A stretch of 64,000 nt of DNA from an uncultured bacterium (GTDB lineage Bacteria; Oederibacteriota; PGYV01; Palsa-1178). Below are positions 22,813 through 31,619 of this stretch, in pieces. The DNA lies in NCBI GenBank assembly GCA_937889595.1, contig CALAOR010000020.1:1-64000 (forward strand), written 5' to 3'. Below the pieces are notes generated by a model. The model saw only the letters and a list, made by a program, of their open reading frames with translations, did not search any database and was not told where the DNA came from. The translations under genes were made by a program, and so were the position numbers. Within the stretch, counting starts at the first letter, position 1. The number at the start of each line of letters is the position of its first letter.

Positions 22813-23415
22813 TCATTTATTATTTTTTTTTAAAAAGTAATTTATCTTATATGCGTCGCCGAGCACAAATGGAGCGCCGTGCCCGGGATAAACATTAAGA
22901 CTTTTGTCAAAGGAATCAAAAAGTTTCAGGCTTTTTTGGAGGATTTTTGGGTCCCCGGACGGCAGGTCCGTCCTTCCGACCGTATCATAAAATAATGTAT
23001 CGCCCGAAAAAAGGCTGTTCCCCATCTTAATTACAACGCAACCAGCGGTATGCCCGGGCGTATGGGTTATTTCAATGCCGTCAATCATATACCTGCCGCC
23101 GCTATAGTAATTAATTCCATTGATTGAGAAAGGAGTTCCCGTGAATTCCGAAAGGTTCTGCGCCGCATCATTAAGCAGTCCTTTTTCATCAGCGTGGGCA
23201 TATATGATCGATTTGTCGAAGTTTTTTACTGAAAAGGTGTGGTCATAGTGCCCGTGGGTTAAAAATACGTATTTAACCGGCAATTGGCATTTGTCGATTG
23301 CGGCTTTAATACCGTCATAATCAACACCCGGATCTATTACATACAGGCAGCCATTATCGGCGACAACATAACAATTCTCGCCGAATTCCCCGTCTGTTAT
23401 TGTAGCTATCTCCAT
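22813..23415 (-). CDS. Metallo-beta-lactamase-fold hydrolase, glyoxalase II-like
   Basis: 200 aa. The HXHXDH motif (H54, H56, D58, H59 in LTHGHYDHTF), the second metal His in HTPGHTAG, the bridging Asp in SGDTLFYDTVGR and the final His in VYPGHGAP are all present, so it should be a two-metal hydrolase. Size and motif spacing match YcbL/GloB-like enzymes acting on thioesters such as lactoylglutathione or similar. It lies 33 bases after the lipoprotein gene and has no clear ribosome site, so it may be read through from the glycan locus. Confidence 0.87.
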   Translation of the reverse strand: MEIATITDGEFGENCYVVADNGCLYVIDPGVDYDGIKAAIDKCQLPVKYVFLTHGHYDHTFSVKNFDKSIIYAHADEKGLLNDAAQNLSEFTGTPFSINGINYYSGGRYMIDGIEITHTPGHTAGCVVIKMGNSLFSGDTLFYDTVGRTDLPSGDPKILQKSLKLFDSFDKSLNVYPGHGAPFVLGDAYKINYFLKKNNK

Positions 23416-23448
23416 GATTTATTGCGCAATCGGCGGCATGATGGCGGT

Positions 23449-24153
23449 CTATTGTATGTTTATGGAGTCAATATATATGTAACCCGTATAGCCGGTCGAT
23501 GCCGCGTCTCCGCTCTGGCCAACAACAATGCCGAGTTTCACGGGGAGGCTTGTCGACACGCTGTTTTGAGAAAGAGTATTGCCGTTCAGGTGCCCGGCTT
23601 GGCCGTTCCCATTTTGCAGCGTCATGGCGCTGTCGACATTTACCGCAAGGGCATTCCATTGTCCCTTTATGGCGCCGGTTGGAGCCGAAAGATTCTGCCA
23701 GGTTGACTGGTACCAGTCACTATTATTGGAAGAGTCAAACTGCATGTAGAAAAAACATCCATAAGGCACGCTGGAAGCGAACATGCCGTTTGGCACCCAT
23801 ATATGTCCGGAGATGACCTTACCCGTAAGCGTGGAAAGTGTAATACCGGCCCTGTCAAGCCTTCCCTGCTTATTCGGCGCGTCAAATAACACAGTTATTT
23901 TTACCGAGGCGCTTCCCATATACGCTTTAACTGTCGATATGGAAGTGTCGGTAAACCCTCCCCCGCTTAAGGTAATACCCGCAAGGTCAGAGTCTGTTTC
24001 AAAAGGGTATGTGGAATTATCTACCCCGCCCGGCGCTCCCTCATTCGGATTTGCGGGGTTGTTCGGGCTTGTGCCTGTGTCCTTTATCTTTCCGCACGAA
24101 GCAAGAAATAGAGCAGCTATTACAACCGCTGAAAATATAATTGTTCTTTTCAT
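23449..24153 (-). CDS. Lipoprotein with carbohydrate-binding-like beta domain
   Basis: 234 aa. The signal peptide ends with a lipobox (FLASCGK), followed by a linker rich in Asn, Pro and Gly (about 26-50). The remaining 180 residues are beta-rich with Trp/Tyr-containing strands (ISGHIWVPNG, WYQSTWQNLSAP) and end GYIYIDSINIQ, the calcium/strand ending common in carbohydrate-binding modules. I cannot assign a CBM family. It follows the tandem GH5 gene by 13 bases with AAAGGAGG before ATG, which supports a surface glycan-binding role in that locus. Confidence 0.72.
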   Translation of the reverse strand: MKRTIIFSAVVIAALFLASCGKIKDTGTSPNNPANPNEGAPGGVDNSTYPFETDSDLAGITLSGGGFTDTSISTVKAYMGSASVKITVLFDAPNKQGRLDRAGITLSTLTGKVISGHIWVPNGMFASSVPYGCFFYMQFDSSNNSDWYQSTWQNLSAPTGAIKGQWNALAVNVDSAMTLQNGNGQAGHLNGNTLSQNSVSTSLPVKLGIVVGQSGDAASTGYTGYIYIDSINIQ

Positions 24154-24166
24154 TTAAAACCTCCTT

Positions 24167-26587
24167 TTAATATCCGGCCTTATTTACTTCATTGGCGTAT
24201 TTTGTGAATATATTCATATACACAGGGTTTGCGTATGACACTTCATTGCCGTCGCCAAAGCTGTATGACGGGTCAATGAGCATCCAGTAATTCATGCCGT
24301 TACCGCCTGCCGCGAAGAACTCGCCTGTCATCGCGTCTATCCACTGCGGCTTGGGGTATTCTTCGAGGTTATTCGGTATGCCGTATTCTTCCATAACGAC
24401 CGGCTTATTCACCTTTTCATGCCCCTGTTTTATGTAATCCTCTATTATCCATTTCGTAGTACTGGCGGAAAAGTGGTTGTAAGGGCTGGCCGGATAAATA
24501 TGGAACGTACAGAAATCTATGGAAGCCGGTTTATGGGAACCTATAAAATCCGTGCCCGAGTAGTGCGTGCCGTCTTCCTTCAGGAAAAAGCCTTCCATAC
24601 CTGTCGTGACCATGTGATTCGTGTCGATTGTCTTGATATAGGACGACATTTCCGCGACCCAATCGTTCATTTGTTTTGATGTCTGGTCATTTTCGTTCCT
24701 TGGCTCGTTCATCAGGTCAAAAGCGAATATTGTCGGGTCGTTTTTATATAAAACGCCGCTTACCGTGTTCTTCCTGTTCACATACGCGTCAATAGTCTGC
24801 TTAAAAAGCTTTTTGCATTCGGCGTTGACCCAGAAATCATTCTTCTGGACGCCCGCCCACTTCGCGTAGACCGCAACTCCGCCGTAATATTCCCAGTTGT
24901 CGGTAAAGTGTATGATCAGCCTTATGTTATGCCTTTTTGCCGAATCAAGGACATAATCCATGGATTTATATGCCGTCTCATTGAATTTATCCGGCCCGAT
25001 CCTGAAATCGTGGGTTGGGTCGTCCTTGTTTGTCAGCGTTTCATTTAAGGCTTCCCCGTTTGACCCGACCCTGATGACCTTAAAACCCGCTTTTGCGGCT
25101 TCCGCGAATATTACATCTATCTTATCCCTGTTCTTTGCACCGTCTTTTTTGCTCAGGTAATAACTGCGTATATAATAGTTGTTTGTTCCGACATACTTGT
25201 ATACATTTTTGCCGTCATAAAAATCAGCGCCTTTTGCTTTTATAAAATTGGAACTCATGGTGAATTTGACTGCCTGAGCCCTTTTCACGGGTTTTGTTTT
25301 GAAACTCATTACTTTTGAAATGCCGCTTTTATCCGCACCGGAGGCCATCACGCAGTATAAATATTGTGTTTCAGGTTTCAGGCCCGCGATCTTTAACTCA
25401 TTGCCGCCCGCTTTGGCGCCTTTAAGTTCCACGCTCTGCAAAAGCGGCGTTTTTTCCCCGTATACTATCTTAATGTCTGTTTTAGAGTCGATTATCGCGC
25501 TTACGACCGCGGAATCAACCCCGGCCTCCGCCTTGATCCCGGTTATCTTTATTGATATGAATTTTTCCTTTAACGACGCCGCAAGTTCCAGCGATTTCTT
25601 AAGTTCCCCGGCCAGCGGCTCCGAACCAAAATCCATGGAGCCTTCGGCCCCCGCATATTTGCCAAAGCCTTCGTAATCATAGATTAAAATGGAGCCTTTG
25701 GAGCCCAAAAATGATTTTGCCGCTTCAAAAACGGTCGAAGTTATTGCCCGGGCGGCGCATGAAAAAGATGCGGCGATAGGCTTGTTAACAGCCGCGTACA
25801 ACCCCGCCGTGTTGTCTGAAAGCGCCTGCAAACCCTGTTCCACACTGTCCTTTTGGCCGATTGAAACCGTGAAAAACGAAATGTCAATTGCCGGCAGCTT
25901 GAATATTTCATCCGCATTATTGTGCGAGCTTAATCCCAATATGACCATATGCCTTTTGTCGAGCGATTTTACATATGAAGACATTTCATCCGCCCATGCG
26001 TACATAACTGCGCCATCCCGGTCGCTTGCGTCATCCGCGCCCGCGCAAAGGTCCCAGCCGAGGATAGCCGGCTCTTCAGAATAAGAAAAACCCGACTTTA
26101 CATTTTTTCTTGCGAGCAGGTGATTTACGTATTTTTTAAAATAGTCCCTGCTTATGATATCCTTGAAAAACACATCGTCATTTGAACCGCCGTTCCATTT
26201 TCTGTATGCTTCCTTGCCTCCGAATACGGCGGAATTGTCGGCAAGCGCTATGATTAATTGTATGCCGTACTTTCCGGCCATGACAATTGTATCATCAAGT
26301 TTTTCAAACTGTTTTTCATTATAAACCCCGGGTTCTTTCTGGAAGGTGTAGTCAGTGTCGCCGCAGTACGACGCGTATATCCTGGCAACAGCCACTCCCT
26401 GCTTTTTTATTCCGGAAAAAGCCTTATCAATCTCATCATTGCCGAGGGTCAGCAAATACGGCATGTTAACGGCAACGATCCTCAGGCCTTTGCCGTTTTC
26501 GCCTGTAATTGACGGGCCGTCAATTACAGCGGCAAATACCGCCAGGGGAGCCAGGATGATCATTATTGCAAACAATAATTTTTTCAT
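24167..26587 (-). CDS. Secreted tandem GH5-like protein, mannanase/cellulase type, N-terminal copy degenerate
   Basis: 806 aa from the ATG with GGAGG four bases upstream; residues 1-19 form a signal peptide. Two GH5 TIM-barrel modules flank a fibronectin-like region (about 335-425). In the C-terminal module the acid/base lies in FAFDLMNEPRNE (about E628) and the nucleophile in KPVVMEEYGIPN (about E733), the pattern of beta-mannanases and cellulases. The N-terminal module keeps the fold phrases (VARIYASYCGD, EPAILGWDLCAGADD, MSSYVKSLDKRHMV), but the NEP motif is replaced by CAGADD and no nucleophile strand is seen, so it is probably a binding or structural copy. Middle gene of the glycan locus. 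Exact substrate unproven. Confidence 0.84.
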   Translation of the reverse strand: MKKLLFAIMIILAPLAVFAAVIDGPSITGENGKGLRIVAVNMPYLLTLGNDEIDKAFSGIKKQGVAVARIYASYCGDTDYTFQKEPGVYNEKQFEKLDDTIVMAGKYGIQLIIALADNSAVFGGKEAYRKWNGGSNDDVFFKDIISRDYFKKYVNHLLARKNVKSGFSYSEEPAILGWDLCAGADDASDRDGAVMYAWADEMSSYVKSLDKRHMVILGLSSHNNADEIFKLPAIDISFFTVSIGQKDSVEQGLQALSDNTAGLYAAVNKPIAASFSCAARAITSTVFEAAKSFLGSKGSILIYDYEGFGKYAGAEGSMDFGSEPLAGELKKSLELAASLKEKFISIKITGIKAEAGVDSAVVSAIIDSKTDIKIVYGEKTPLLQSVELKGAKAGGNELKIAGLKPETQYLYCVMASGADKSGISKVMSFKTKPVKRAQAVKFTMSSNFIKAKGADFYDGKNVYKYVGTNNYYIRSYYLSKKDGAKNRDKIDVIFAEAAKAGFKVIRVGSNGEALNETLTNKDDPTHDFRIGPDKFNETAYKSMDYVLDSAKRHNIRLIIHFTDNWEYYGGVAVYAKWAGVQKNDFWVNAECKKLFKQTIDAYVNRKNTVSGVLYKNDPTIFAFDLMNEPRNENDQTSKQMNDWVAEMSSYIKTIDTNHMVTTGMEGFFLKEDGTHYSGTDFIGSHKPASIDFCTFHIYPASPYNHFSASTTKWIIEDYIKQGHEKVNKPVVMEEYGIPNNLEEYPKPQWIDAMTGEFFAAGGNGMNYWMLIDPSYSFGDGNEVSYANPVYMNIFTKYANEVNKAGY

Positions 26588-26613
26588 AAAACCTCCGTTT
26601 TTCATGTTTATAT

Positions 26614-29600
26614 TTAGAAATATCCTTTAAATGCCAGCGTGAACCTCGTCAATGTATCGTCATTGTTGTCGTCGAGCCAGTATCCTGTGAAAGGCTGCAC
26701 GCCATAGCCCAATATGATATTAAATGACCCGACCAGGTTTGCTTCAAGTTCGGCGTACCAGTTGCCGTGCGGGGTTGTATCCGAAGAAAGGAATTTATAA
26801 CTGCCGGTGAACTTGATCTGTTTGCTGAGTTTCAGACTTGCTTCAACAAATCCCGTCACCTTGGCATAATCCATCAGCGAATACGACCCTGCTTCATACA
26901 GGTTGCCGCGCAGGGCTTCATACCTGCCGAGCAGCCTGAAAGTAAGCATATCGCCGGCAAGTATCTTTGTAACACCGGATATTGAAGTATTCGGGAATGG
27001 GGTTGGATCGCCCTCGTTATTATACTTCCACCATATGTGATAATTGTAAAGCGCAAGCGACTCATCGTTTTTAAGGTCTATAGTATATGTGTCCCTCTTG
27101 TATGTCGACGCTATGGAATGGTTGGTGCCGTACTCAACCATAAGCTGTGTATAGTGGACAAATGTCGAGAAACCGGAATTGATATTGCCGATGACATTGA
27201 ACGGGAATACCGTATCCATGATATATGTGGCTTTCGCGTCGATTTCCCTGTTCCCCACACCATAATCCGGGTTTGCGTACGCAGCCGCAAAGTTCGCACC
27301 TATATCTCTGTAAAAAGCAGATACTGTGAGATACCCGAAATGTATACCTGTTTCCCCGTATATAAGCAGGTTTTTCGACGTGTCGGAAAGGTCCTGGCTT
27401 ATGGGCACCAGGGTTGGTGTGTACATGATATATACAGGCGCGGCTGTCGCGTACTGTGAGTATAACACCTCGCCTTTCAGCGTCATATCAAGCACGCCCT
27501 GCCACGGCAGGTATATGGCGGTATCGCCGCCGTAAATATTTGCCGACTGCTCCACTTCGCCGGTGAAAGGATTTGCGTTTGCGTCATACCCGCGCCTGTT
27601 GTTCATAAAAATAGCGCCCAGGTAATCTTTGTCGAGGAAGTACGTCTTTAACCTCGCGCCCGAAACAAATGTGGTGCCGAGTTTCCACGGTTCTGCCGCG
27701 TCCATGCTCATCCCCATCAGCATATAAGATGTGTTTATGGGATAAAGCGTGCCGGCAAGCGATACTCCCATGACATTTGAGCCTTGCGAGGCCGGGTCTA
27801 TCAGGCCGAATACATCGTCAAAGGGTTTTGTATTTTCCCCGGCAAAAGCGGTAAATTCATTACCCAGGCCGCGTAGTATTACATGCCCTGACTGCACCGA
27901 CAATTCATTATTCTGCCCGTTATAATAAGCAGCCCTTAAGGTTACTTTGCCTTCCACATTGTCGTTGGGAGTAAAGTACAGGTTCACATCCTGCTCGACA
28001 TTAAAATCAGTTATGCCATTGCCTGTGTTAAAATTGCCCTGTGAATCATGCCCTAATGCGGCCGTATCCTTGTATCCCCATCTTACATTATCCATATATA
28101 CCGAACCCTCAATGCCGTTATAGAACATGAAAGTTATCATATGCACGAGGGTTTTGTTCTTGATAGTATCAGAATTAACCCAGCCGTTCGCCGCGTCTTT
28201 CCACTCCGGAGAATCCAGGTTCATCTTTATATTCTTGTTCCATCCCGGCTTAATTATTATCTGCTTTGACTCATACCACGAATTATTGGCGTCGGCAGTC
28301 TTGAAAGCAACCGCGAGTTTCATGACCTTGCCCGGATTATACAGGTCAAAAGCCAGGAAGCTTTTATTGCTGATGTCAAATACATCGGTTGTATTCGGGC
28401 CCCTTACGTATTCAACCCCGAACTTGTTGCCCGCGTCTTTATAATCAAGCCTTAATGATTTCTTGCCTTTGCTCGCGAACTTGTCGGATATGGAAACATT
28501 GACAGGCCCCCATCCAGCCATGTCGGTTGAGTCAAATTTCCAGTAGTTAAGCGCTGCTGCGGTTTCAAACGTGCCCTCGCTGCTGCCTTCGTCCCAGGTC
28601 TTGTAAACCACCGGTTCCGCAGTTACCACGGTATTATTCGCGAAAGTCGCCCCTATTATATTACCGATAGGGCCGATAAAATTTCTCCTGGCAAGTTTGA
28701 AATCCGTAAAATCCAGCGAACTCGCCACCTTGGCATCCGGGTAAACCTGTATTATAAACTCTCTTACATCGTTCCTGTTCGAGAAATAATCCGTGAAATT
28801 CCAGTTGGAAGTTGCGGACTTAAAGGAAGGCGTGATAAAATCAAAAAGCACGCCCTTGTTCCATCCCGGCGCGATACCCACCTGTTTTGATTCGATCCAC
28901 ACCTGGTTGCTGCCTGTTTTAAACGCTATGGAGATTTTCACCCCGAAAGCCGCGGGGTTGTAGATGTCGAATTTCACGCCGGCCGCGTCGGAGAAATCCA
29001 TCCTGCCAAAAAAGGAATATGACGCCTTATCGACGTTATTCTGCATCGAGTACTTTATTTCCATTCCCTTGTTTTTTTCCCCGCCGAAATCGCTTATGGG
29101 GTTTACAGCCATGGCGCCCGACGCGTCGGAATCAGGCTGCCAGCCTATGCCTTTTTCAAAACTGTTCCATACACGGTATGACAGTTCCCCAAGGTCGGCA
29201 GGCACCAGGTTGTCCAGTTTGTCGGGATTCGTTGTTTCCATTGTAATATCATCTATGAGAGCGTATCCTTCGCCCATGTCCGGAGGGTATAATAATATGG
29301 AAATCCTTTTTACCTGTGTTATATCCGCGGGTGTGATCACGGACCGCCAACCGCTCAACTCGCTTTTCCATTCCTTTTTCTTTAAATTGAATTTAACGCC
29401 CCTGTTCCAGCCTTTGTTGACCTTGACTGTCGGGCCTTCCTGCCATGTCCATTTATCGCCGGTTGAAAGCGCCAGCGACGCGTTCATGGAAAAATCATTG
29501 GGGTTGTAAATATCAAGCTTGAAATAATAAACATCCGACAGGTCAAACGAGCCTTCCGTCACAAATGCAGCATTCTGGCCCGGTTTGTTCATATTGAATT

Positions 29601-30354
29601 TTGCTTTCATTACCCCTTTGCCGTCCGTGTCCTTGACCATTTCCACGCCCGAAGCGCATGTCCAGCCTGCGGCGGCGGACCACTTGTTGAATCCTTTTTC
29701 GAAGTGATCTATCAGAACCTCTTTTAAGTTTTTCGGCGCTTCTTCAGGAAGCAGTGCCTGTATTCCCGCGTCGCCTCTTATGCGGATATTATCCATGGCT
29801 ATAAAACCCTGCGCCGCGCCTGTCGGCTTAAAAAGCAAGCCGAGCCTGCGCACATTATCTTTTCCGGAAATCGGATTATTGAATTCGCCTGAATTATTGA
29901 GCTGGTAGCCGTTGTCAAAATTAATCGTAATGTCCCTGTTCCAGCCCGGCTTGACTTCCACCGGTACAGTCTGCTGCAGGAGCCAGTTCGCGCCTGTCTT
30001 GACCATAAGCTGGACTTTCATGCCGGAGAGCGTGGAGTTATACAGGTCAATTTTTATTTCCTTTACCGGTCTCAGATCGCCGCTGTCAAAAAGCTGTATC
30101 ATTCCTTCCTGGTTTTTACTGCGGGCATTGCATTTGAATTCAAGCGACTGCTTTCCTTCGGAAACAAAATCCGTCGAGACGGCCGGCTCGAAAAACATAT
30201 TATCCTTCCAGTCCTCAACCGACCAGCCTGATGTATCGCTTTCAAACCCGTGCCATACATAGAATTTATCAGGGTCGATCTGTGGTTTGTCGGCTGAAAA
30301 AACAAAGATTGGAATAATCAACAGGAAAAGAAGAATGGATATTTTTTTGGCCAT
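26614..30354 (-). CDS. Outer-membrane beta-barrel with four N-terminal carbohydrate-binding-like modules
   Basis: 1246 aa from the ATG with GGAGGG upstream; a signal peptide ends near FVFSADKP. Four homologous jelly-roll-like modules of about 165-180 residues occupy roughly 25-770. Each starts with a HxFE or W.FD phrase, contains DLYNP or DIYNP and PGWN(R/K), and ends with DN+R or similar; this resembles CBM4/11-type modules. The final 450 or so residues alternate polar and aromatic as in a porin barrel (LMVEYGTNHSI, SYMLMGMSMDA) and end TLAFKGYF, the terminal Phe expected for barrel assembly. No TonB box or plug is seen. It heads the glycan locus and probably captures and admits oligosaccharides. 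The fusion is unusual. Confidence 0.75.
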   Translation of the reverse strand: MAKKISILLFLLIIPIFVFSADKPQIDPDKFYVWHGFESDTSGWSVEDWKDNMFFEPAVSTDFVSEGKQSLEFKCNARSKNQEGMIQLFDSGDLRPVKEIKIDLYNSTLSGMKVQLMVKTGANWLLQQTVPVEVKPGWNRDITINFDNGYQLNNSGEFNNPISGKDNVRRLGLLFKPTGAAQGFIAMDNIRIRGDAGIQALLPEEAPKNLKEVLIDHFEKGFNKWSAAAGWTCASGVEMVKDTDGKGVMKAKFNMNKPGQNAAFVTEGSFDLSDVYYFKLDIYNPNDFSMNASLALSTGDKWTWQEGPTVKVNKGWNRGVKFNLKKKEWKSELSGWRSVITPADITQVKRISILLYPPDMGEGYALIDDITMETTNPDKLDNLVPADLGELSYRVWNSFEKGIGWQPDSDASGAMAVNPISDFGGEKNKGMEIKYSMQNNVDKASYSFFGRMDFSDAAGVKFDIYNPAAFGVKISIAFKTGSNQVWIESKQVGIAPGWNKGVLFDFITPSFKSATSNWNFTDYFSNRNDVREFIIQVYPDAKVASSLDFTDFKLARRNFIGPIGNIIGATFANNTVVTAEPVVYKTWDEGSSEGTFETAAALNYWKFDSTDMAGWGPVNVSISDKFASKGKKSLRLDYKDAGNKFGVEYVRGPNTTDVFDISNKSFLAFDLYNPGKVMKLAVAFKTADANNSWYESKQIIIKPGWNKNIKMNLDSPEWKDAANGWVNSDTIKNKTLVHMITFMFYNGIEGSVYMDNVRWGYKDTAALGHDSQGNFNTGNGITDFNVEQDVNLYFTPNDNVEGKVTLRAAYYNGQNNELSVQSGHVILRGLGNEFTAFAGENTKPFDDVFGLIDPASQGSNVMGVSLAGTLYPINTSYMLMGMSMDAAEPWKLGTTFVSGARLKTYFLDKDYLGAIFMNNRRGYDANANPFTGEVEQSANIYGGDTAIYLPWQGVLDMTLKGEVLYSQYATAAPVYIMYTPTLVPISQDLSDTSKNLLIYGETGIHFGYLTVSAFYRDIGANFAAAYANPDYGVGNREIDAKATYIMDTVFPFNVIGNINSGFSTFVHYTQLMVEYGTNHSIASTYKRDTYTIDLKNDESLALYNYHIWWKYNNEGDPTPFPNTSISGVTKILAGDMLTFRLLGRYEALRGNLYEAGSYSLMDYAKVTGFVEASLKLSKQIKFTGSYKFLSSDTTPHGNWYAELEANLVGSFNIILGYGVQPFTGYWLDDNNDDTLTRFTLAFKGYF

Positions 30355-30377
30355 TACACCCTCCGAAGTTTTTACGC

Positions 30378-30391
30378 GCAAACGCGTTTTG
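30378..30391. promoter_or_regulatory. LacI-type operator, downstream site
   Basis: GCAAACGCGTTTTG, with the perfect palindrome AAACGCGTTT at its core, lies in the leader just downstream of the predicted start of transcription. It has the CG-centred, A/T-flanked form of LacI/CcpA-family operators and matches the site in the promoter spacer. Confidence 0.6.
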
Positions 30392-30410
30392 TCTCCTAGT
30401 AACGGATAAA

Positions 30411-30439
30411 AATATATCACGAAAACGCTTTTGCGTCAA
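30411..30439 (-). promoter_or_regulatory. Promoter of the glycan locus with LacI-type operator in its spacer
   Basis: -35 TTGACG (30439-30434), 17-base spacer, -10 TATATT (30416-30411). The spacer contains GAAAACGCTTTTGCG (plus strand, 30421-30435), a LacI-family-like operator that would block RNA polymerase directly. With the second site downstream, this layout suits repression relieved by a sugar. No LacI regulator gene is in the window. Confidence 0.65.
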
Positions 30440-30448
30440 TCGTATAAA

Positions 30449-31453
30449 TTATATCTGCCCCGATAATTTCTGGACTGCCACGCTCACCACGGCCACAACC
30501 ACCCAAACGATCAGCCCCAACAGCATCGGCTTATACCCTGTCTTTAGCATCTGTTTAAGATCAGAATGCAGGCCTATCGCGGATAACGCAAGGATAATTA
30601 AAAACTTGCCGGTTTCCGTACAGATTGTTGAAATTTGCGGGGTTATGATGCCGGCTGTATTTAAAAGCGACGCTGCCAGGAATCCCAGTATGAACCATGG
30701 GAATATTTTTAAGAAACTGTAATGCTCATGTTTTTGCGTTGATTCTTTTTCTTTCTTAAATACCATTATGACCGTAAAAATCAGCGATATTGGTATTATC
30801 ATTACCGTGCGCGTGAGTTTTACTATCGTGGCGTAAACCCCGGCGTCATTACCGTAACTAAAAGCAGCGGCGACTACCGAAGAAGTATCGTTTATCGCGG
30901 TGCCTGCCCATAGCCCGAAACCATGCTGAGAAAACCCGATTATATGCCCGATAACCGGAAATACAACAACAGCAATTACATTGAACATAAACACCGTTGA
31001 AATGGAATACGCGATATCCTTGTCTTCCGCTTCTATTATAGGCGCGATTGCCGCGATAGCAGAACCTCCGCATATTGCGGTCCCCATGCCGATCAGGGTG
31101 GTTATTTTAAACGGTAATTTCAATAGCCTGCCGAATAAATAAGCCGCTATGAACGCGGCGGATAAAGTGAATATCATTACAAATAATGAAGACATCCCGG
31201 TCTGATATACCTGTTTGAGGCTCAATCCCCCGCCGAGAACTATTATGGCCCATTGGAGGATGGTCTTGGACGTGAATTTTATACCGTGGCTCGTGCCTTC
31301 GGGCCGCCCGATAATATTGCCGAAAATGATGCCTATAATAATGCCAAAAACCGCTCCGCCGACGATCGGTATTATTTTTCCGAGATAAGCCGCAGTGACG
31401 GCTACTATAGATGAAAGAAGTATCCCTTTTATGTTTTCTTTTATCCAGTTCAA
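30449..31453 (-). CDS. YeiH/UPF0324-family membrane transporter
   Basis: 334 aa, about ten hydrophobic segments. The family phrases GGAVFGIIIGIIFGN, AIIVLGGGLSLKQV, GMGTAICGGSAIAA and WAGTAINDTSSVVAAAF are present. UPF0324/YeiH proteins are predicted inner-membrane anion exporters (sulfate has been proposed), but direct evidence is thin. Translation starts at TTG with AAAGGTG five bases upstream. It ends 95 bases before the glycan-locus start, and nothing links it functionally to that locus. Confidence 0.87.
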   Translation of the reverse strand: MNWIKENIKGILLSSIVAVTAAYLGKIIPIVGGAVFGIIIGIIFGNIIGRPEGTSHGIKFTSKTILQWAIIVLGGGLSLKQVYQTGMSSLFVMIFTLSAAFIAAYLFGRLLKLPFKITTLIGMGTAICGGSAIAAIAPIIEAEDKDIAYSISTVFMFNVIAVVVFPVIGHIIGFSQHGFGLWAGTAINDTSSVVAAAFSYGNDAGVYATIVKLTRTVMIIPISLIFTVIMVFKKEKESTQKHEHYSFLKIFPWFILGFLAASLLNTAGIITPQISTICTETGKFLIILALSAIGLHSDLKQMLKTGYKPMLLGLIVWVVVAVVSVAVQKLSGQI

Positions 31454-31488: not shown

Positions 31489-31619
31489 GATACTGTCGGC
31501 CCCCCCCCTAAAAACCAACGTTGTGGGCCGAATAATATTCGGCCCCTACAAATATCTGCCTGTATTTGTAGGAGCAGCATATCATGCTGCCCGCCCTTAC
31601 GGACTTTTCCGACAGCATC
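31489..31619. mobile_element. MITE-like element with GATACTGTCGG ends, copy A
   Basis: Terminal repeats GATACTGTCGG (31489-31499) and, inverted, GATGCTGTCGG (31609-31619). Inside are two GTAG-footed hairpins: GGGCCGAATA/TATTCGGCCC around 31526-31545, and GCAGCAT/ATGCTGC around 31574-31590. The right half (31562-31620) matches 43414-43473 over about 60 bases with few differences. No coding capacity. Confidence 0.7.

Follow-up and report, generated by a model that had tools for sequence, protein, structure and literature searches.

Gene organization of the locus

The window, i.e. the first 64,000 nt of one contig, belongs to a 3.4 Mb genome (99% complete) of an uncultured soil bacterium from the candidate phylum FCPU426/Goldbacteria; FCPU426 sequences have been assigned to Goldbacteria, a cellulose-degrading candidate phylum (PMC7031533). 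Three genes follow one another on the minus strand: a gene for a 1246 aa protein that joins CBM-like modules to a predicted outer-membrane barrel (26614–30354, ribosome site cGGAGGgtgtaATG), a gene for a secreted double GH5 protein (ORF 24167–26605, likely start codon at 26587, GGAGGttttATG) and a lipoprotein gene (23449–24153, ribosome site AAGGAGGttttaaATG). All three genes are preceded by ribosome sites of the GGAGG type, with gaps of 8–13 bp between the ORFs as listed, in agreement with an initial annotation of this DNA that described three closely spaced genes with strong ribosome sites. The operon includes neither an inner-membrane sugar transporter nor exo-enzymes, and no linked regulator gene was found.

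Two neighbouring genes were considered as further members of the operon and rejected. The first one (22813–23415, minus strand) encodes a glyoxalase-II-like hydrolase of the MBL fold, which often adjoins the cassette in relatives but not at L026; for this reason, and because it has no strong ribosome site, it is probably not in the system and was not retained as an essential fourth member. The second one, an upstream YeiH-type gene (30449–31453), does not adjoin the barrel gene in relatives. A palindromic element, gtaggggccgaatattattcggccc, is present at 31510–31600 upstream of the YeiH-type gene, and a similar one, tgtaggggcaattcatgaattgccc, precedes the operon in L018; the two may represent small mobile repeats of this phylum.

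The cassette is conserved within the order

Full-length or near-full-length homologues of the 1246 aa protein (45–76% identity) occur in 8 of the 14 genomes of the order, a count that includes the genome of the window; among these eight carriers, the contig of G007 is cut and the gene of G011 has one in-frame stop, a TAA (L026:3457–3495) resulting from either sequencing error or decay. The order barrel–GH5–lipoprotein is kept at L009, L022, L023, L024, L025 and L026, and the cassette recurs in five genomes besides that of the window; the search for the same fusion next to GH5 genes, which the initial annotation had proposed as a check, thus revealed conserved synteny. L009 is a homologous contig with about 75% protein identity, on which one frame break divides the GH5 gene. 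The flanks differ in L024 and L026, hence conservation of the cassette exceeds general synteny.

The barrel domain was detected in none of the remaining genomes of the phylum (45 searched), and the fusion is absent elsewhere among the 384 genomes searched, the exception being a divergent form encoded by two family f9 genomes. About 340 of the genomes lie outside the phylum, a subset of known genomes, and these lack the fusion; just one of them gave a CBM-like match. Separately, a Spirochaetes contig (L010:1658–7399) encodes CBM proteins of that same kind, including a fusion with DUF5060, followed by a LacI-type regulator gene.

Family f9 belongs to the same phylum, and its two genomes encode three proteins in which CBM-like modules precede a predicted barrel-like region. 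Two of the three genes lie directly behind a glycosidase-like gene, GH5-like for L027:449–5670 (G022) and GH129-like for L028:5036–11730 (G016). Profile comparison between f9 and the window protein gave a probability of 98.7% over 627 columns, which include the CBM modules and part of the barrel, while the barrel only gave a weak match (hhalign probability 16%). Because of this last value, a shared origin of the f9 and window barrels is likely but not secure; the CBM-barrel architecture seems to have been re-used with different glycosidases in the phylum.

The operon promoter carries a LacI-type operator

The operon promoter, TTGACG-17-TATATT (30411–30439, minus strand), was recognized from the sequence and by scanning, and the same design is present in all eight operon genomes. 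It contains a LacI-type palindromic operator, ACGCAAAAGCGTTTTCGT (core AAAnCGnTTTCG; 30419–30436, minus strand), whose sequence overlaps the -35 box at its end and takes up most of the -35/-10 spacer. As in a LacI-family regulon, a palindromic operator with a central CG lies within the promoter in 8 of 8 genomes. The composite TTGAC-N2-4-AAANCGNTTTCG occurs once per genome in each of the eight carriers, always at the operon promoter, and is absent from the six non-carrier genomes of the order as well as from the reversed control. The annotation of LacI-type operators, in the plural, stands for this conserved site only: another LacI-like palindrome, located in the 5' leader (30377–30392, two mismatches), is absent in relatives and was rejected as probably a chance or local occurrence.

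When two mismatches were allowed, the operator gave 45 matches genome-wide versus 39 in the reversed control, which is mostly chance level; one match on C75 was rejected as a further target as it falls inside a gene. At about position 26955 of G000:C8 in the source genome (L199:2925–2970), a TTGACA-TATAAT promoter is directly followed by ACGAAAGCGTTTTTGT; a short fragment of a secreted protein lies downstream, near a GH5 cluster, and the regulator of the operon may have a second target here.

In a comparison of the LacI proteins recovered in 13 genomes of the order, just two of the source genome (G000:C35 and G000:C76) were reciprocal best matches with a protein of every other operon carrier. 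Both also occur in the five non-carriers examined, making a general LacI-type regulator the likelier partner of the operator. Co-occurrence was abandoned as a means to designate the regulator, with no LacI protein being specific to carriers and two occurring throughout the order except in one genome that gave no LacI match. The source genome also encodes LacI-family sugar-sensor domains apparently devoid of a DNA-binding domain (L069:5378–6220, L197:260–1108 and L199:4503–5330), one of which lies within a few genes of a complete LacI regulator conserved across the order.

The GH5 protein points to beta-mannan as the probable target

The GH5 protein is composed of an N-terminal GH5 copy, a fibronectin-III-like linker (weak Pfam match) and a C-terminal GH5 domain. 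Profile searches of the PDB matched the C-terminal domain with endo-beta-mannanases (3pz9, E 1.4e-62). Of the 16 best matches, 15 carry the name of a mannanase or mannosidase, and the other, 1uuq, is also called MAN5A. This domain keeps the NEP and EEYG catalytic motifs of an endo-beta-mannanase, and Glu634 and Glu740 (812 aa ORF numbering) are assigned from the sequence as putative catalytic residues; membership of subfamily GH5_7 is suggested by the PDB matches. The N-terminal copy does not share these features. Its nucleophile Glu is missing in all six aligned proteins and its acid/base Glu is retained only in L024 and L026, with neither catalytic glutamate in the window's copy, so that this domain is, judging by these residues, a pseudo-enzyme and perhaps a binding domain. 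Hence the tandem GH5 initially proposed does consist of two GH5 domains, of which one is active-looking and the other a pseudo-GH5. The second domain and its catalytic motifs are shared with GH5 endo-beta-1,4-mannanases of the subfamily 7 type such as 3pz9, whereas the degenerate GH5 copy and the linker that precede it distinguish the present protein. Beta-mannan or beta-glucan had earlier been inferred as the target; the homology of the GH5 domain and of the CBM modules narrows the choice to beta-mannan, which is probably the glycan concerned, and the match of the second domain to endo-beta-mannanases (E about 1e-62) now gives this target a basis in evidence.

The 23449–24153 protein has a lipobox, LASC-GKIK, and a CGKIK-type start is found in several relatives. 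It ends in YIDSI and matches the CBM array weakly in a profile comparison. The lipoprotein with a CBM-like domain described earlier is therefore upheld as to its lipobox, while the weak match and the YIDSI end suggest that it carries a CBM-like beta-sandwich. We regard it as a candidate surface glycan-binding protein.

Four CBM modules precede a predicted outer-membrane barrel

The 1246 aa protein starts with a signal peptide (residues about 1–23), followed by four CBM11/CBM27-like modules (residues about 30–765) and by the predicted barrel (residues 785–1246, 462 aa), which ends in F. AlphaFold2 (AF2) modelling with six homologues gave four similar beta-sandwich repeats, mostly at pLDDT 70–90; the whole-chain pTM is low (0.40) and leaves the arrangement of the modules undefined despite their beta-sandwich folds. 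Module 1 matches the Pfam family Mann_GBD_bact (PF21253, E 9e-17) and a GWN motif is present in every one of the four modules. Foldseek comparison with the PDB retrieved CBM11 (1v0a, TM 0.69 over 175 columns), and further matches were with CBM28, the mannan-binding CBM27 (1oh4/1pmj) and the CBM of the Bacillus mannanase JAMB-602 (1wky). The beta-sandwich fold resembles that of solved CBMs, so the four CBM-like modules first recognized from the sequence are borne out: their CBM folds are supported with moderate confidence and glycan binding is predicted. CBM11, CBM27, CBM28 and PF21253, a mannanase galactose-binding domain-like family, share this fold and usually sit on glycoside hydrolases, whereas here it sits on a predicted barrel.

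For the barrel region, AF2 with eight sequences predicted 23–24 strands in a low-confidence model (pLDDT 47, pTM 0.40). Its Foldseek matches are mainly outer-membrane barrels, namely ushers, AlgE, LamB, ScrY and FadL, with OprB as another weak match; this is a hint only, since the best E is 4.5e-3, with nothing below E 0.001, and TM-scores are near 0.2. A PDB profile search with the CBM-barrel protein gave no sequence match, and Pfam no porin family. The poor model, and a hydrophobic alternation that fails to separate the barrel from the CBM region, would suit a secreted binding protein with a soluble, beta-rich C-terminal domain. We consider this quite improbable, given that in its composition, with 7.8% Tyr, no Cys, a net acidic character and a terminal Phe, the region is like OmpF, FadL and LamB and unlike MalE and the GH5 protein, and that the best fold matches are mostly membrane barrels. 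Moreover, the region displays a TPnDN hairpin pattern, much of the low-confidence model has short turns (DN, LG, FG, AGD) in alternation with long loops, the inter-strand alignment gaps fall mostly in the loops of one side, and a C-terminal LxFxGxF is conserved.

The genome also encodes an Omp85 protein (BamA-type), so that the cell should have an outer membrane. With a signal peptide, a terminal aromatic residue, a porin-like composition and BAM in the genome, residues 785–1246 are taken provisionally as an outer-membrane barrel, which may be a closed one. A type V autotransporter does not fit, as the region spans 462 aa versus about 280 aa for a 12-strand barrel and has no PF03797 match. The Pfam search revealed no plug/TonB domain (PF07715) in the 1246 aa protein, and four plug-type TonB-dependent barrels (PF07715) are encoded elsewhere in the genome. 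The predicted barrel is, on this domain search, plug-less and apparently TonB-independent, consistent with the missing TonB box reported at the outset. Altogether, the structure prediction that had been suggested as a check supports the four CBM folds; the earlier barrel claim gains from the C-terminal F and the porin-like composition, while 23–24 strands at pLDDT 47 are no proof of it and provide no confident model of closure.

Topology, export and anchoring

Barrels with an even number of strands normally have both ends in the periplasm, and the CBM modules would be periplasmic if the barrel were an ordinary one. Turns and indels in the low-confidence model would rather put the start of strand 1, hence the N-terminus, outside; their pattern is compatible with an odd number of strands and an external CBM array. 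A periplasmic array would be in keeping with a reverse system, in which the cell exports or trims in the periplasm its own mannan-like polysaccharide, as with AlgE/AlgL or BcsC/BcsZ. Polysaccharide exporters are often paired with a glycanase, and AlgE is among the weak Foldseek matches. However, the cassette contains no glycosyltransferase, synthase or polysaccharide ABC exporter, LacI-type control is typical of sugar catabolism, and the closest solved homologues of the GH5 domain hydrolyse beta-mannans, which makes export highly improbable.

An N-terminus placed outside by the loop lengths and indels of the model would also suit a C-terminal domain that only anchors and displays the CBM array, tethering the cell or the mannanase to the plant cell wall with no passage of sugar. 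A large four-module binding array is appropriate for adhesion, and in one Goldbacteria genome CBM11 is the commonest CBM with 24 copies (PMC7031533), which fits adhesion to fibres. Nevertheless, 462 aa and 23–24 strands are large for a mere anchor, the composition is porin-like, and the strict operon pairing with an endo-enzyme together with sugar-type control resembles uptake systems; we thus view pure anchoring as unlikely.

A putative beta-mannan utilization operon

We favour uptake and propose that the locus is, with fair probability, a dedicated LacI-repressed beta-mannan utilization operon of FCPU426/Goldbacteria, in which uptake would occur via a plug-less CBM-porin. A LacI-family repressor bound to the operator between -35 and -10 would block RNA polymerase, and a manno-oligosaccharide or related sugar would act as the inducer that lifts the block. 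Mannan would be held at the outer membrane by the lipoprotein together with the four CBM modules of the 1246 aa protein, and the GH5 endo-mannanase, perhaps aided by binding through the pseudo-GH5 domain, would cut it. The oligosaccharides would then pass inward through the plug-less barrel on the chain that bears these modules.

In Bacteroidota, separate SusC and SusD proteins share the job that is here fused in one chain. As in the Sus loci (SusC/SusD/SusE and an endo-GH), an outer-membrane barrel, predicted in the present case, is combined with glycan binding, a binding lipoprotein and an endo-glycanase in one regulated operon. Unlike them, the present genome has no SusD (PF07980, 0 matches, with a positive Bacteroides control), the protein has no PF07715 plug or TonB-dependent-receptor domain, the binding modules are fused to the barrel, and a LacI-type operator replaces HTCS, SusR or ECF control. 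The view of a SusCD-independent glycan-use locus is thereby sustained, as is that of binding modules and predicted barrel on one chain, an arrangement recurring in 8 of 14 genomes. The porin-like composition, beta strands and terminal Phe are shared with the sugar porins LamB, ScrY and OprB and with TonB-dependent sugar receptors; sugar porins have 16–18 strands, whereas 23–24 are predicted here, together with four N-terminal CBM modules and no Pfam porin match.

No description of a CBM-porin fusion was found in the literature searched. More tentatively, the CBM-porin could form a class of its own among outer-membrane proteins for glycan import, so far limited to this phylum, in which one chain unites a multi-module receptor and a plug-less channel and is deployed alongside various glycosidases; it would then be an answer separate from SusCD to the same import problem. 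How large plant polysaccharides enter through the outer membrane outside Bacteroidota is poorly known, and the operon offers a compact, testable system with a precise regulatory site in an uncultured phylum. Channel function and CBM exposure, if shown, would raise its standing.
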